Shown: positions 6,166 to 17,068 of the stretch, in pieces
Layout: every line of letters starts with the position of its first letter
Position numbering within the stretch: the stretch's first letter is position 1
NCBI RefSeq assembly: GCF_008087665.1
Contig: NZ_CP042912.1
Coordinates: 4,526,001-4,590,000 of the forward strand
DNA length: 64,000 nt
Direction: 5' to 3'
DNA from: Mariniblastus fucicola
Lineage (GTDB): Bacteria > Planctomycetota > Planctomycetia > Pirellulales > Pirellulaceae
The notes under the pieces: generated by a model
Databases searched by the model: none
What the model was told of the DNA's origin: nothing
The model's input: the letters and a program-made list of their open reading frames with translations, nothing else
Made by a program: the position numbers and the translations under genes

Positions 6166-7515
6166 CTAAGTCAGTTTTGCTTTCACCAGTCGTTCTGCCA
6201 AGTCAAAATCGATTGATGCAAGTTCGTCAACGCCATCGACCAACTGGTTGAGAATCTCTTCCTGCACAACACCCTGTCGCTTTGCTTCTGCGTATGGCAA
6301 GTTGTGAAACATCACCAGAGAGTATCTCGGGATGAAGGTTTCCGGAAATCGTTTTTCCAACTCAAACCCGATAGCTTTTTTAAGGTGGAACTTGGGGTCG
6401 ATAACACTCTTCTGCATCGTCGTATGATTTTCAATCGCCATGTCGGCAATCGCATCGGCGTTCGGTTTCCGCAGAGCGCTGAACTCAGGTAGAACAGCTG
6501 CCCAGTCCTCGTCGTACTCATTGAGCAGCCGTAGCAACTCACTGCAATCCTCGAAACCCGAGTTCATTCCCTGCCCATGAAACGGAACGATCGCATGCGA
6601 GGCGTCTCCGAGGATCAAGCCGCAATCAGTATGGTGCCATGGTGAACAGCGGACCGTCCCGAGGATACCGGTCGGGTTGTTGGCGTAGTCCTGTTCGAGT
6701 TCGGGCATCAAAGGAATTGCGCTGGGAAAGTGCGTTTCGAAAAAAGCCTTTACCGCGTCGACGCTATCAAGCGACTGGAAACTCGGCTCGCCTTCTTTAT
6801 GCAAAAACAGCGTCACCGTGAAACTTCCGTCGAGATTCGGCAACGCGATCAGCATGAAGCCGCCGCGAGGCCAAATGTGCAGTGCCTCTTTTTCGATTTG
6901 GTAGGCTCCGTCGACACCGGCTGGGATTTCCAGCTCCTTGTAGTCGTGTTCGAGAAACTCGGAAGTACTCTCGCCGCCGGTCGCGGCAATCAGGTCGCGG
7001 CGCACGCGGGAGCCGGCACCATCAGCTCCAATAACCAGATCGAACGATCTTTCTGTCGTTGATCCATCGACCGTACTCTCGAATTTCGCCACGCGGTTCT
7101 CGAAGTCGATGCCGGCGCATTTTTGGTCAAAGTGAACGTGCACCGGTTCGGCAACGACGGCTTCGTTGACCATCAGGTTGTTTAACTCGCCTCGCGGAAC
7201 CGAGTAGATGACTTCGTGCTCGCGTTGTCCGTATGGAGAAAACTGCATCGAACCATCCTGTTGATGCAACATGCGGCCACACATTGGGATCAGCAGCGGC
7301 TTGACTTTCTCGTAGAGCCCGGCGTCTTGCAAAGCTTTGATGCCGCGTGATGAAAGAGCCAGATTGATCGAGCGTCCGGACGCGACACCCCTGTTCCTTT
7401 CGTCGCTGCGACGTTCGAAAAGGTCGACTTCGTATCCGCGTTTGCCAAGCATCACGCCCAACAATGAGCCGACCAGTCCAGCACCGACAATGACAATTTT
7501 CTTTTCCCGAACCAC
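6166..7515 (-). CDS. kmo: Kynurenine 3-monooxygenase
   Basis: A 449-residue FAD-dependent monooxygenase that hydroxylates L-kynurenine to 3-hydroxykynurenine using NADPH and oxygen. The N-terminal dinucleotide-binding motif is GAGLVG (Gly11, Gly13, Gly16), followed by DLFERR at the end of beta-2. The second FAD motif, LGDASHAIVPFHGQGMNSGFEDC-like, lies at about residues 300-322 and its GQGMN element is typical of this enzyme. Two C-terminal hydrophobic membrane-anchor helices known from the eukaryotic enzyme are not evident. The start is GTG at 7515, two bases after the stop of tryptophan 2,3-dioxygenase, so the two genes are almost certainly co-transcribed and act in successive steps apart from formylkynurenine hydrolysis. 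No kynureninase or formamidase is in the window. Confidence 0.93.
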   Translation of the reverse strand: MVREKKIVIVGAGLVGSLLGVMLGKRGYEVDLFERRSDERNRGVASGRSINLALSSRGIKALQDAGLYEKVKPLLIPMCGRMLHQQDGSMQFSPYGQREHEVIYSVPRGELNNLMVNEAVVAEPVHVHFDQKCAGIDFENRVAKFESTVDGSTTERSFDLVIGADGAGSRVRRDLIAATGGESTSEFLEHDYKELEIPAGVDGAYQIEKEALHIWPRGGFMLIALPNLDGSFTVTLFLHKEGEPSFQSLDSVDAVKAFFETHFPSAIPLMPELEQDYANNPTGILGTVRCSPWHHTDCGLILGDASHAIVPFHGQGMNSGFEDCSELLRLLNEYDEDWAAVLPEFSALRKPNADAIADMAIENHTTMQKSVIDPKFHLKKAIGFELEKRFPETFIPRYSLVMFHNLPYAEAKRQGVVQEEILNQLVDGVDELASIDFDLAERLVKAKLT

Positions 7516-7517
7516 GA

Positions 7518-8618
7518 CTATTCGTCTCCGCGGAAGAAGAAACCGAGCTCCTTGCGAACCTGCTTTGGCAACGGCGGCAGGTCCTCGCGAGGAATCAACA
7601 GCGTGGACAGATTGAACAAATCCAGAAAGACTCTGTTCTTTTTGGTTGTCGCTTCGAGGTAACCGGTTCCTGACGATCCACCAGTCCCGATCTTTGTTCC
7701 CAGCATTCGATGCACCATTACGGCGTGTCGTTGTCGCCAGCGAGTAAACAGGCTGTCGATATCAACCAACAACGTGAGAAACCGAAACCCGGTGTACAGC
7801 AGTGGCTCGTCGCGATACAGATTGATAAACAGAGCCGCAAGGAATCCTTTGTGGGAAAACCGGAGCTCGCCGGCGTCACGAAGTTCGTTGTAACGGTCTT
7901 CATCGAGCATCGACTCGAACCGTTTCCGCGTGTTCTCTACTTCAGCCAACTGAAACTGTTTGTCTTTATCCGAAAGCGTACGGTTGTCTCGAATGATCCG
8001 GGCATCGGAGTCGAGCATCTTTTCAACAGCCTGGCTGTAGGACTCCCAGAAATTGAATCCGCCGATGTTGAACAACGGAGCCCGCTGCAACCAACGATCG
8101 ACCAGTTCCAGAAGGTTCGGACGTTCTTCGACTTCGGCCAACCGTTTCTGGTCGGAGTACGACAATCGCGTTTTGAAGAAAGCACAGTCGGACGCAATGC
8201 GATTCTCCTGCCGAATCCCCATCATGATTTCAATTCGCTTGAACATGATGCTTTGGAAGCCCGACGCCGGAACCAACAGGTCACGGAACTCAAGAAAATC
8301 CAGCGGCGTGATCGTTTCGATGACTTCGATCTGTTCGATCAGGACTCGCTGGATCGTTTTGATACGAGCAAGAAGATGCAACATGCGTCCCATCTTTTTG
8401 TCTTCGACGACTTCGCTGGAAAGAATCCGAATGATCTCATGAAACTCAAACACGATCTGCTTGAACCACAGCTCATAGGTCTGATGCGTAATGATGAACA
8501 GCATCTCATCATGAGCCGGTTTGCCAACCTTTTCGCTTTCGAGTTCCTGGGCATCAAGGATCTTGTCCAAGCGCAGGTATTCCCGGTAGTACAACCCGGG
8601 AGGTTTCTTGTCGTCCAT
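7518..8618 (-). CDS. kynA: Tryptophan 2,3-dioxygenase
   Basis: A 366-residue heme dioxygenase that opens the indole ring of L-tryptophan to N-formylkynurenine, the first step of the kynurenine pathway. Family marks are the ITHQTYELWFKQ segment containing the distal His45, the LLVPASGFQS segment near residue 115, the heme-ligand region RHAVMVHRMLG near residue 300, and GTGGSSGTGYL directly after it. The N-terminus LYYREYLRLDKIL is also typical. The ATG at 8618 gives the expected length. It lies 39 bases after the exported oxidoreductase and two bases before kmo, consistent with one transcript. The upstream sequence is A-rich and lacks a clear Shine-Dalgarno site. Confidence 0.95.
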   Translation of the reverse strand: MDDKKPPGLYYREYLRLDKILDAQELESEKVGKPAHDEMLFIITHQTYELWFKQIVFEFHEIIRILSSEVVEDKKMGRMLHLLARIKTIQRVLIEQIEVIETITPLDFLEFRDLLVPASGFQSIMFKRIEIMMGIRQENRIASDCAFFKTRLSYSDQKRLAEVEERPNLLELVDRWLQRAPLFNIGGFNFWESYSQAVEKMLDSDARIIRDNRTLSDKDKQFQLAEVENTRKRFESMLDEDRYNELRDAGELRFSHKGFLAALFINLYRDEPLLYTGFRFLTLLVDIDSLFTRWRQRHAVMVHRMLGTKIGTGGSSGTGYLEATTKKNRVFLDLFNLSTLLIPREDLPPLPKQVRKELGFFFRGDE

Positions 8619-13403: not shown

Positions 13404-14588
13404 TTACTTTCGCAGATCCCGCGTGATCTCCAAAAAGGCTTCCTTGACCTTCAGGTTTTCAAACGGTTTCAGGTCCGGGACGGTCAGGTTCGTGATCGCG
13501 TCGAAGGCGCGACGACTGGTCGCCATCAGCGATGCCACGTCCTTGCTCAAGGCAACAGTCCTGTACGTATTCACCGCGGTCAAAATGTTGCGTCGGCACT
13601 CAAGATTGGCGTTCATCATCTGGTGCTTTTGATGGGCCAACCCTTGTTTGTAGAGCATCACCGCGTCGTAGGTCACTTGATTGGAGGCGATGTTGTTGTT
13701 CAGAATCTCCGCGTCGCCGCCGGCTTTGATCGCGCGTTCGGCTTCTTCGATATTGATCATCGCTTTTTGCGCAAACGCGTCGAGTTTCGGATAGTACTCG
13801 TCGTCCACGTTGTCGATGAACTTGTTTTGCAAGCGATCGACCGTCTTGAGCAGCATCAAATAGACGCCGTAGTATCGCTTTGCCGCGTCCAGATCCTCGC
13901 CCGTTTTTTCCGTTAGCTCTTCCAGCTCAAGCGCGAAATTTTTGGCATTGTCGAAGATGATGGAAACGCGAATGAACTCGTCGCCGGTGATCGATTCGAG
14001 CAGAATGTCAATTTGTTCAGCGTCGAGTTTCAGTCCGATGCCTTCGAGCTGTTCGACCAGCTTCTGTTTCTCGTCAGCGATTTGCGATTCGAACTCAACG
14101 ATCTGTTCTTTTTTGGCTGCGATCTTTTCCTCATAGCCCTCGCGAGTGACCGCCAGCGGATTGTAGGTAGACTCGGGAGCCGAAATTTTCTTGCGTTCGT
14201 AGATCGTCAGTTCTCGTTGCGCCGCGCTGATTTTCTGACGCAGTCCCGCAACGATTTGACGCTGATCACTGATACTGGAGATGCCGAGCGCGTCCGAAGC
14301 CGCATCGAGATAGCCTTCGATTCGAGTTTGTTGGGCTTCCTGGGAACGGCTGAGGAAATCGTAGAAAGCGATGTCTTTCGATTCCTTGAGCTCTCCTTTT
14401 TCATCGAACATGTCGAGGGCTTCACTTAGCGATTCATGAGCCTGCTCAAAGAAGCGACTAGTGTCACGCCGTTCTTTTTCCAACATCTCTTCGGTCTGAA
14501 AAGCGCCAACGGGCGGCGCGAAAATCGCGCTGAGGGTAACCAAAGCCATCCCAATCATGGTCGTGCGTTTTCGGGTATTTTTTCCCAT
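13404..14588 (-). CDS. Exported coiled-coil protein of unknown function
   Basis: A 394-residue protein I cannot assign. It begins with a basic start and hydrophobic run (about residues 9-28) ending near PPVGA, consistent with a signal peptide. The mature part is almost entirely alpha-helical and highly charged, with long heptad-like stretches at about residues 100-180 (Glu, Lys, Gln rich) and repeated Glu/Lys/Leu patterns to the C-terminus. There are no catalytic motifs and no second membrane helix. The gene is flanked by the ABC permease downstream and the redoxin fusion upstream, all on the minus strand, with gaps of 83 and 110 bases. A structural or periplasmic scaffolding role is possible but speculative. 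Confidence 0.65.
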   Translation of the reverse strand: MGKNTRKRTTMIGMALVTLSAIFAPPVGAFQTEEMLEKERRDTSRFFEQAHESLSEALDMFDEKGELKESKDIAFYDFLSRSQEAQQTRIEGYLDAASDALGISSISDQRQIVAGLRQKISAAQRELTIYERKKISAPESTYNPLAVTREGYEEKIAAKKEQIVEFESQIADEKQKLVEQLEGIGLKLDAEQIDILLESITGDEFIRVSIIFDNAKNFALELEELTEKTGEDLDAAKRYYGVYLMLLKTVDRLQNKFIDNVDDEYYPKLDAFAQKAMINIEEAERAIKAGGDAEILNNNIASNQVTYDAVMLYKQGLAHQKHQMMNANLECRRNILTAVNTYRTVALSKDVASLMATSRRAFDAITNLTVPDLKPFENLKVKEAFLEITRDLRK

Positions 14589-14698: not shown

Positions 14699-16681
14699 TT
14701 ATTCGGCCGAACCGTACAGTTGGCTCAACAACTTTTTCAGCCCCAGCATGTTGTCCCGCAAAGCGATCTCTGAATCCAAATCATCGCGATGGTCGATGAT
14801 CCCGATCGGGCCGGCATAGCCGGACGCAATCACGGTGCGAATCATGTCGGCTTCATACTTGCCCTCGCCGATGGTCAGAATTTTGTTCTCCAGGGTTTCC
14901 TCATTTACGATCTGCGGCTCGACCATTCCGTTGAGGTTCACGCAATAAAGGTAGGGCAGCATGACATTAAATCGAGCTTCGAAATCCTCGACGTCGCCGT
15001 GTCCGTGATGGAAGTTGTAGACGATTCCCACGTGATCAGAATCAGGTTGAGTCGCGCGGATGTGTTTGACGACAGCAACCATGTTTGCGGGGTCGCCGGT
15101 CCATCCGCCATGATTGTAGAGAGCGAACTTGAGTCCAAGTTCACGCGTTTTGTCGACCATCTTCTTGAGGTGTTCCGCCGTCGCAACAACTTTCTCCTCC
15201 TGAGTTCCCGATGGCTTGAATTGCATGTAGTGCCAAATCTGGGGCTTGATGCCGTGCTTGCGAATCAGTGGCTCCATCGAAGGATGCCAATTGAAGAAAG
15301 TGAAGTACTCGATGCCGTTCGCTTTGTACGCCAGGATCTCCCGTTCGAACTCCTTCAAATGGCGTTCGCGCCACGCATAAGCGCTTCGTTTGAGCCCGAG
15401 GTCGAAGATCATTTTTGCGCGATCTTCTGGCGAACGCTTTTTGGAATCAAAAGCGACCGTGCACCAGGGCACCAGATTCCCGGTTTTGAAATTGTCTCCC
15501 GGAGTTGGCTTGGTTGCCGGTGCAGATTCTGAAATTTCGACCTTGTCGCTCGCGAAGGTGCGTCCAACGCGATCCGCGATCGCCTGCTTCAATTCCGTCG
15601 GATCGATTTGGCCTTGCTTGCGAAACACAACCTTTCCTCCCGGAGCGTAGATTGCGGTGTACGGAAATCCGCCTTCCCATTCCGGGTCCAACGTTTCAAA
15701 AAGTTCGTCCCGCTTCCCGGAGTTGAACAACACATTGCGACATGAGACGTTCGTCTTTGTTAATACTCGCAACGCTTTGTCCTGGTCTTTCAGTTCATCC
15801 ACGCTGACCGTAACCATCTCAAACTTGCGGCCGCGGTACATTCGATTGATCGTGACGAATTCGGGAAGCTCTTCAAGGCACGGGCCACACCACGTCGCCC
15901 ACACGTTGACCACGCGTAGCTTGTCCGTGTCGTTGGCGGCGATGGCTTTGAGCTTTTCCAAATCGATCACGCTCAGACTGACCGGTTCTTTGTCCCATTT
16001 CGCGAGATAGCGTTTGTGGTCTTCGCGTTTGGTAAACCATTTTGTGGAACAGCCAAAGACACGTGTCGTTTCGACGGGCACGGCTTTGTCAGCAAGCAGT
16101 GCATCAATTGCATTTCGAGCGTCGTGAACTTTCGGATTGCCTTCTTCTGAGTCATCGATTCGACCTTTGTAACGGAGCTTGCGTTCGGCGTCGAAAATGA
16201 ACACGTGCGGTGTCGCCAACACGCCATACGAAAGCGAAACTTTCTGAGTCTCGCCATCGAACAGGTAGGGAAACTTGAAGCCAGCTTCCCTGGCACGGAT
16301 CTTCATGTCTTCGAGAGTATCGCCAAGGTCAGAATATCCAAGCTCGTCCAAGCGCACGGCTTTGGGATCGTTTGGCGAGATACCAACGATTGCGACTCCC
16401 TTCGCGGCGTAGTCCTCAACCATTTTGTTGAGCCGTTCTTCGTAGGCCTGTGCCGTTGGGCAGTGATTGCAAGTGAAAACAACCATCAGCACTTTTTTGT
16501 CCGCATAGTCGGCGAGCTTGTGATTCTTGTCGTCGACTCCGGGCAGATCAAAATCCGGGGCCGCATCGCCGATATTGAGTTTGGTGAAACCATCGGGATT
16601 GGATGACTGCTGAGCGAACGTTTCCGACTGAAAACAGATCAGCAGAACAACAACGACAAGTCTCAGGACAAAACTTTGCAT
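14699..16681 (-). CDS. Exported fusion: redoxin + thioredoxin-like + xylose isomerase-like TIM barrel
   Basis: A 660-residue protein with three modules. After a signal peptide (about residues 1-23), module 1 (about 36-200) is an AhpC/TSA-type redoxin with a CNHC pair (Cys71, Cys74). Module 2 (about 225-380) is a TlpA/ResA-like thioredoxin with the classic WCGPC motif near residue 264. Module 3 (about 420-655) resembles the xylose isomerase-like TIM barrel of sugar phosphate isomerase/epimerases (SAYAWRERHLKEFE, YNHGGWTGDP, YNFHHGHGD, GIIDHRDD). The two redox modules suggest extracytoplasmic disulfide or thiol chemistry; the barrel suggests a carbohydrate step with metal-binding His/Asp/Glu. 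The frame is open 24 codons further upstream, but the ATG at 16681 has AAGGAG before it and a signal peptide after it. Linking the activities is inference. Confidence 0.82.
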   Translation of the reverse strand: MQSFVLRLVVVVLLICFQSETFAQQSSNPDGFTKLNIGDAAPDFDLPGVDDKNHKLADYADKKVLMVVFTCNHCPTAQAYEERLNKMVEDYAAKGVAIVGISPNDPKAVRLDELGYSDLGDTLEDMKIRAREAGFKFPYLFDGETQKVSLSYGVLATPHVFIFDAERKLRYKGRIDDSEEGNPKVHDARNAIDALLADKAVPVETTRVFGCSTKWFTKREDHKRYLAKWDKEPVSLSVIDLEKLKAIAANDTDKLRVVNVWATWCGPCLEELPEFVTINRMYRGRKFEMVTVSVDELKDQDKALRVLTKTNVSCRNVLFNSGKRDELFETLDPEWEGGFPYTAIYAPGGKVVFRKQGQIDPTELKQAIADRVGRTFASDKVEISESAPATKPTPGDNFKTGNLVPWCTVAFDSKKRSPEDRAKMIFDLGLKRSAYAWRERHLKEFEREILAYKANGIEYFTFFNWHPSMEPLIRKHGIKPQIWHYMQFKPSGTQEEKVVATAEHLKKMVDKTRELGLKFALYNHGGWTGDPANMVAVVKHIRATQPDSDHVGIVYNFHHGHGDVEDFEARFNVMLPYLYCVNLNGMVEPQIVNEETLENKILTIGEGKYEADMIRTVIASGYAGPIGIIDHRDDLDSEIALRDNMLGLKKLLSQLYGSAE

Positions 16682-17068
16682 GACGGGGCTCCTTGGGTCA
16701 GATGAGTGGCCGACATCATAACATCTGCAAATAGGGCAAACCATTCGCGGCATTGCGTTGCAAAGCGGGATCGATCTCCTGAGACTTCGAGTTCACGACT
16801 GTCCATTCGAACCGCGTGAACGTTCGATCCGGAATCGTTCATGGTCAACTTGTTCGTAAAAACGCAGTATGCAGACTGACGTTGAAGTAAACTTCCTGAC
16901 GGGACGAAAGTCCGAATTAGACGTGGGCTCGCCGAGAAATCTGCGAGCTTTCTTGGGCGCAAGAACTGGCCCACGATCTGAATCTTTGCAAAATGACCTA
17001 CACTCAACGCGAAGATTTGGCCCGAGCGTCCGGCACACGAACGACAATCTCAAGTCATACTGTTATCC
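16682..17068. other. Divergent intergenic region
   Basis: 387 bases between the fusion gene (minus) and a membrane protein gene (plus). On the minus strand TATGAT at 16720-16715 is a good -10 candidate, 34 bases before the fusion start; the matching -35 is weak. I see no supported small gene or hairpin. Confidence 0.4.

Follow-up and report, generated by a model that had tools for sequence, protein, structure and literature searches.

A likely exported planctomycete protein joining two thioredoxin-fold modules to a xylose-isomerase-like barrel in two genomes of one genus

Introduction

We take the C- and O-glycoside eliminases AgCGD2, PuCGE and AtOGE to belong to the same superfamily as the barrel family examined here. 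According to the available excerpts of two papers (PMC8563793, PMC10628242), these enzymes are barrels with a catalytic-base His two residues past the strand-5 ligand, and they need Mn, held through Glu or His, Asp, His and Glu. The metal ligands of AgCGD2 are given as Glu147, Asp179, His269, Lys271 and Glu305, with His149 as the base and Glu307 behind it (PMC8563793, in excerpt); those of AtOGE are His132, Asp163, His189 and, weakly, Glu233, with His134 as the base (PMC10628242, in excerpt). The same excerpts report that mutation of a ligand or removal of the metal nearly abolishes activity. Our family has the base His at the same spacing as these enzymes, whereas its mapped ligand positions hold Tyr, Asn, Asn and Ile or Leu.

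The redox half of our protein has relatives of two kinds. The structures 2ywi and 3u5r are uncharacterised proteins that, in alignments, have the fold and a C-terminal GCS/GCN-KW motif in common with the first module; 2cvb, named thioredoxin-like as is 2ywo, has the fold in common. Unlike the fused protein, 2ywi, 3u5r and 2cvb consist of a single domain. Modules 1 and 2 by themselves form a common protein of roughly 380-430 residues. Stand-alone redoxin-thioredoxin proteins, among them L060, that of genome G208 (in L166) and L038-L042 from records of Aminicenantes, Acidobacteria and Planctomycetota, have the same two modules in the same order with the same four invariant cysteines, but they lack a barrel and stop where the linker of the fused protein starts.

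Many recently evolved planctomycete proteins have unique domain combinations, as stated in the available excerpt of PMC8567305. A literature search at title and abstract level found no description of the three-module architecture or of the barrel family. Here we examine a gene within a 64,000-nucleotide stretch of Mariniblastus fucicola DNA (the window), for which a sequence-only reading had proposed that one exported chain joins an AhpC/TSA-type redoxin, a TlpA-like thioredoxin and a xylose isomerase-like barrel.

Results and Discussion

Gene and protein layout

The window lies within one 6.57-Mb contig. Translation of the gene from the ATG at 16681 gives 660 residues with no internal stop (Table 1). 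An alternative, longer in-frame start exists at 16753; against it stands the plausible signal sequence, as judged by eye, that opens at 16681, and export of the chain is accordingly supported as likely. All three Pfam domains exceed their cut-offs within this single open frame: AhpC-TSA (PF00578, residues 37-171, E 2.2e-31), Thioredoxin_8 (residues 254-333, E 1.8e-14) and AP_endonuc_2 (PF01261, residues 438-637, E 1.1e-8, 35.5 bits against a cut-off of 31.1). The proposed profile comparison thus bears out a redoxin, a thioredoxin and a barrel in one chain. Below, P0001 is the fused protein of the window, G000 its own genome, and L-numbers denote loci or sequence rows.

Table 1. Features of the fused gene, in window coordinates
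Feature	Residues	Coordinates	Strand	Basis or remark
Whole gene, three modules	660 aa	14699..16681	minus	Open frame; Pfam; same fusion in G211
Likely Sec signal	1-23	16613..16681	minus	Read by eye; TFA|QQ site
Module 1, thioredoxin-like redoxin	32-219	16025..16588	minus	Pfam; 2ywi, 3u5r and 2cvb by sequence and fold
CNHC	71-74	16460..16471	minus	Alignment of 43 rows
C211 in GCSTKW	211	16049..16051	minus	43/43 rows
Module 2, ResA/TlpA/DsbE-like thioredoxin	226-380	15542..16006	minus	Pfam; Foldseek
CGPC	265-268 (WCGPC 264-268)	15878..15889	minus	Both Cys 43/43
Linker	381-398	15488..15541	minus	Fast-changing; dN 0.515 and 39% identity vs G211
Module 3, xylose-isomerase-like barrel	399-652	14726..15487	minus	Pfam; profile-profile comparison
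A436	436	15374..15376	minus	Asp in 81/81 barrels without redox fusion (63/63 + 18/18)
H524	524	15110..15112	minus	Place of catalytic-base His in related Mn eliminases; 65/65 + 18/18

A second genome of the same genus, G211, carries all three modules in one frame (L064:2489-4615) with identities of 86, 79 and 75% in modules 1, 2 and 3, and L064 adjoins MutS and a 394-residue gene as the window gene does. The same fusion with the same neighbours excludes a frameshift or assembly join within the gene, the finding that the sequence-only reading had named as fatal to it. Between the two copies dN (NG86) is 0.114, 0.164 and 0.155 in modules 1, 2 and 3; dS is 2.7 in module 2 (ratio 0.06) and incalculable in modules 1 and 3. 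The fused barrel is therefore still constrained, at a value close to that of module 2. The signal region has diverged to 36% identity over 22 aligned codons (dN 0.664), and we read the low dN of the modules, set against linker and signal, as purifying selection on all three.

Distribution and origin of the fusion

The three-module architecture was found in two sampled genomes only, G000 and G211. With the whole protein as query, a full-length match came only from G000 among the matches listed for 199 family genomes, and likewise in 396 order genomes (E <= 1e-90) and 392 phylum genomes (E <= 1e-80); two of 28 genus genomes carry the fusion. These samples overlap and were drawn from larger groups, G211 having come from the genus sample, and there may be further carriers beyond them. 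The domain-order search in other planctomycetes agrees with the earlier view that the combination is unusual. A genus-level barrel search matched in 14 of 28 genomes and gave one close relative, 76% identical, in G211. A scan of genome contigs gave six loci, with the barrel absent from the DNA examined at each. A 1305-residue frame in G488 was considered as a further fusion and left uncounted, as its extra part seems to be a wrong-frame reading of another gene.

Elsewhere the barrel stands alone or is joined to a SASA esterase, a BNR (sialidase-like) domain, ThuA or cytochrome/cupredoxin proteins. BLAST to partner domains sorted the 64 barrel ORFs other than that of the window into 39 of at most 450 residues with no partner found, 10 with SASA, nine long frames of DUF6797/LamG type (one also with ThuA), two with ThuA, one with BNR, one with the redoxin-thioredoxin pair (L064) and two long frames in which no partner was found. 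Pfam itself names SASA in L044 and L065, BNR_2 in L050, ThuA in L051, L052 and L093, and DUF6797 in L063, L088 and L093.

Trees of the two halves point to the same genus. The barrel tree, built from 65 rows, unites the two fused copies in one clade (100/100), whose sister group consists of ten SASA-fused barrels from the same genus (99/95). For the redox half, a tree of 44 rows joins the two fused copies (100/98) and places the stand-alone protein of G208, also of this genus, as their sister (100/100). Each half thus has its sister among differently built proteins of this one genus, SASA-fused for the barrel and stand-alone for the redox half, which indicates recent partner swapping. The SASA-barrel proteins (L044-L049, L065-L067, L070), whose barrels are the closest in the tree, have the barrel at the C-terminus as P0001 does; unlike P0001, they begin with a SASA esterase domain and keep D436. 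The G208 protein ends in GRTYASDKK, where the fused protein runs on, GRTFASDKVEISES, into the linker.

The redox half

Across 43 aligned redox rows C74, C211, C265 and C268 are invariant, as is P340, the later proline of module 2; position 71 is Cys in 32 rows and Ser in 11, and never Thr. The cysteine counts leave out L001 and L060-L062, duplicates of a row already used, as well as every row, such as L028, that did not show both modules at E 1e-20. Here and in the barrel alignment such row counts are not counts of independent events, because some rows nearly duplicate one another (L038/L040, L031/L034 and eight SASA rows).

An AlphaFold2 model of residues 25-385, built from six sequences, has a mean pLDDT of 69.6; most of module 2 exceeds 80, and some stretches of module 1 fall below 50. 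Searched against the PDB with Foldseek, it matched 2ywi, 3u5r, 2cvb and 2ywo (35% identity class), followed by ResA, CcmG and DsbE-type chains. Module 2 has the thioredoxin fold, the WCxPC-type motif and the later Pro of TlpA/ResA/DsbE-like proteins, and is predicted to exchange disulfides; its description as a TlpA-like thioredoxin with WCGPC is upheld by the Thioredoxin_8 score and by these structural matches.

The case of module 1 is more mixed. The peroxidase motif of AhpC/TSA peroxiredoxins is PxxxTxxC, and it is absent from residues 64-75, where position -3 from C74 is C71 and position -7 is V67. Since the motif is absent and the structural relatives are either uncharacterised or named thioredoxin-like, peroxidase activity is not implied, and we dropped a peroxidase reading despite the PF00578 match. 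The label AhpC/TSA-type redoxin consequently holds for the profile match and the CNHC motif, but not for the peroxidatic motif. By fold and by the conserved cysteines of [CS]NxC and GC, module 1 fits the 2ywi/2cvb thioredoxin-like family. The conserved C74/C211 pair, together with the neighbouring CGPC, suggests an internal disulfide relay between modules 2 and 1.

The redox pair has been joined to another partner in G037, which belongs to another genus of the same family. There it heads a 1625-residue frame (L195:524-5401) that continues with DUF5060 (E 9.8e-20) and an Apiosidase-like catalytic domain (E 5.8e-19). As in P0001, the pair lies N-terminal to a carbohydrate-active module; the C-terminal part is different, C71 is Ser and WCGPC is replaced by NCIPC (L030, L195). 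This redox-plus-glycosidase fusion arose independently of the barrel fusion and is a second link of the redox pair to secreted carbohydrate chemistry.

Three smaller observations concern module relatives. The nine rows L029-L037 make up a separate redox-pair clade: Ser replaces C71, the module 2 motif has TTC or NC instead of TWC, and a long insertion lies close to residue 312. In G000 itself, a 709-residue frame (L004:1303-3432) starts with a module 1 relative and has a long C-terminal part, presumably similar to cytochrome c and copper monooxygenase sequence. Viral contigs contained two weak module 1 relatives, which were left unused.

The barrel half

The third region was predicted to be a TIM barrel, and sequence profiles support this: besides the PF01261 score of P0001, a profile-profile comparison with 18 PF01261 paralogs of its own genome gave a probability of 97.5 (E 4.9e-12). 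PF01261 matches at E<=0.01 in 18 of 19 barrel relatives, several of which fall below the Pfam cut-off as whole proteins (e.g. L044, L050, L063); the absence of any PF01261 match in the complete G211 frame also weighs against a barrel. Modelled by AlphaFold2 from the P0001 sequence alone, the barrel gave a poor model (mean pLDDT 42.6, pTM 0.38). Among solved structures, the profile of the barrel alignment matched 4ovx, a xylose isomerase domain protein, best but weakly (E 0.018), ahead of three weaker matches; 4ovx keeps the canonical Glu in ENHGG, unlike the barrel family. A search of NCBIfam gave only matches far below cut-off or at E >= 0.01. The family is highly conserved, and NCBIfam lacks a good model dedicated to it. 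It occurs in 20 of 294 phylum genomes at E 1e-30, and no relative was found in the viral contigs searched.

Counts refer to a barrel alignment of 65 rows, from which the duplicates L001 and L002 were dropped, to a further 18 phylum barrels (duplicates L174 and L179 dropped) and to 18 canonical PF01261 barrels (L137, the protein itself, and L138 dropped). These own-genome paralogs keep the strand-5 Glu in 12 cases and the strand-6 Asp in 17. Ligand positions were mapped by hand-checked profile alignment of the barrel to the paralogs L120 and L126, and the mapping is sequence-based. Y522 faces the strand-5 Glu in both alignments. N582 faces a Gln at the His position in the L120 alignment, and I629 and H631 face two strand-8 Glu in that with L126. 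As for the Asp, its counterpart is N556 in the alignment with L126; in that with L120, which has a two-residue gap there, it is H558, or N556 if the gap is ignored. The E-x-H, D, H-x-K and E-x-E spacing in the excerpted AgCGD2 data matches Y522-x-H524, N556, N582-x-N584 and I629-x-H631.

Y522, H524 and N582 are found in 65/65 barrels and in 18/18 of the further phylum barrels. Position 556 is Asn in 57 and Ser in eight of the 65, and Asn in all 18. H631 is likewise invariant in the 65 and is His in 16 of the 18; the other two, L191 and L192, have Glu, the letter excerpted for AgCGD2 at the place of Glu307. The metal ligands Glu(His), Asp, His(Gln) and Glu are thus absent from the mapped positions Y522, N556, N582 and I629, H558 being the alternative for Asp, while the base His after the strand-5 ligand is present throughout. 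The barrel family seems to have kept the base His and lost the metal-binding acids. A metal could still be bound differently, through the conserved His 558, 559 and 561.

Within this family the redox-fused barrels differ at particular residues. P410 and D436 are conserved in 63/63 barrels without redox fusion and 18/18 more, and are Ala in the two fused copies only. W463 (63/63, then 12 Trp and six gaps among the 18) is Phe in the fused pair, and I408 (62/63, then 15 Ile and three Val) is Thr. Counted over positions where at least 97% of the other barrels agree, P0001 deviates five times and L064 four times, against a median of zero; L099, which is not redox-fused, equals P0001 with five, and this counts against our preferred explanation below. 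Eight SASA-fused rows have N523S and N556S in common. As judged from these alignments, the barrel family is loosening within the host genus, most of all in the redox fusion. Faster evolution of the whole barrel is not supported: summed from the common node of fused and SASA-fused barrels in the barrel tree, the fused branches (0.75, 0.78) lie within the range of their ten SASA-fused sisters (about 0.62-0.82). The change in the fused barrels is confined to specific near-invariant sites.

A separate observation concerns the neighbours of stand-alone barrels. Those of L056, L079, L081 and L082 directly adjoin a protein of a 741-residue class that recurs in eight loci. It matches AXE1 over cut-off across 47-48 residues (L056, L079), which makes it a lead to the substrate of the barrel.

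Proposed function and alternatives

We propose that P0001 is a secreted tandem thiol-disulfide oxidoreductase whose barrel has been converted, most likely for binding or targeting, a reading that commands roughly half of our confidence. A gene fusion within a single genus would have added the C-terminal barrel to an exported oxidoreductase of two thioredoxin folds. A membrane electron donor would feed module 2, whose CGPC would exchange disulfides with module 1, through C74 paired with C71 or C211. The fused barrel, with its altered pocket (I408T, P410A, D436A, W463F), would not isomerise sugar phosphates; its most likely role is to bind a sugar-like ligand or to bring the redox pair to its target. 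We prefer binding to a conventional isomerase step because the mapped positions lack the canonical ligands and the fused pair has lost an otherwise invariant Asp. Of the two roles once suggested for the barrel, a carbohydrate or sugar phosphate step and binding only, these residues weaken the sugar-phosphate idea and leave binding as the better candidate.

A tentative alternative, which we consider doubtful, is that the barrel is an active 3-keto-sugar or glycoside enzyme that works without the usual Mn site, with H524 as its base, and that the tethered redox pair has a protective role or is coupled with this enzyme. This would account for a base His kept in every barrel row, for H631 at the place of the excerpted AgCGD2 Glu307, with Glu itself there in L191 and L192, for the many invariant polar residues and for family partners that act on carbohydrates; the fused copies also keep H524, His 558, 559 and 561 and most of the conserved pocket set. 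Set against it are the near-inactivity of known eliminases once ligands are mutated or the metal is removed (excerpts of PMC8563793 and PMC10628242) and the loss of D436, P410 and W463 in precisely the fused copies.

It is unlikely that the fusion arose merely by chance, through loss of a stop codon or recombination, with modules that work independently and a tether of little meaning. Such an origin fits a junction that falls exactly at the end of the stand-alone G208 protein and a barrel family that often swaps partners. Yet two genomes retain the fusion, its modules 75-86% identical and each with a low dN, pocket residues are altered solely in the fused pair, and the redox pair is also joined to a glycosidase in G037. 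A bolder version of the binding proposal, to which we would give only a slim chance, holds that the family is a mobile, metal-free offshoot of 3-keto-sugar eliminase/isomerase barrels, and that here it serves as a non-catalytic sensor steering or targeting a two-step disulfide relay; a sugar signal would then set extracytoplasmic thiol chemistry. The chance that the locus is an artefact (a frameshift, an assembly join or a false domain call) is negligible, for it has in its favour only the rarity of the architecture and the whole fused G211 frame, which has no PF01261 match even at E<=1, and it is refuted by G211, where both the fusion and its neighbours recur; the single contig and a barrel that exceeds its cut-off in P0001 also speak against it.

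Taken alone, the fusion is a rare outcome of domain shuffling. Of broader interest is the barrel family, scattered across the phylum, seemingly without the metal site of its superfamily and with the base His kept. Knowing what it binds or does would account for a component that recurs in many secreted proteins, and the fused pair provides natural pocket variants of it. The glycosidase fusion of the redox pair suggests, in turn, that these bacteria bring thiol chemistry and carbohydrate breakdown together outside the cytoplasm.

Genomic neighbourhood

Downstream of the fused gene, 13404-14588 encodes a 394-residue, exported-looking protein that matches no Pfam family at E<=0.01. We did not adopt an operon reading, since this neighbour is present in 26 of 28 genus genomes and the fusion in two of 28. 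G134, which keeps the block from the 394-residue gene to tryptophan dioxygenase, has no relative of the fused gene in the 18 kb examined. Scans for consensus promoters and terminators gave fewer sites than in shuffled sequence. No operon partner pointing to the function of the fused gene was found, which counts against the binding and targeting proposal. Further along the window, two adjoining minus-strand frames (6166-7515 and 7518-8618, within 6166-8618) presumably encode relatives of kynurenine 3-monooxygenase and tryptophan 2,3-dioxygenase, respectively.
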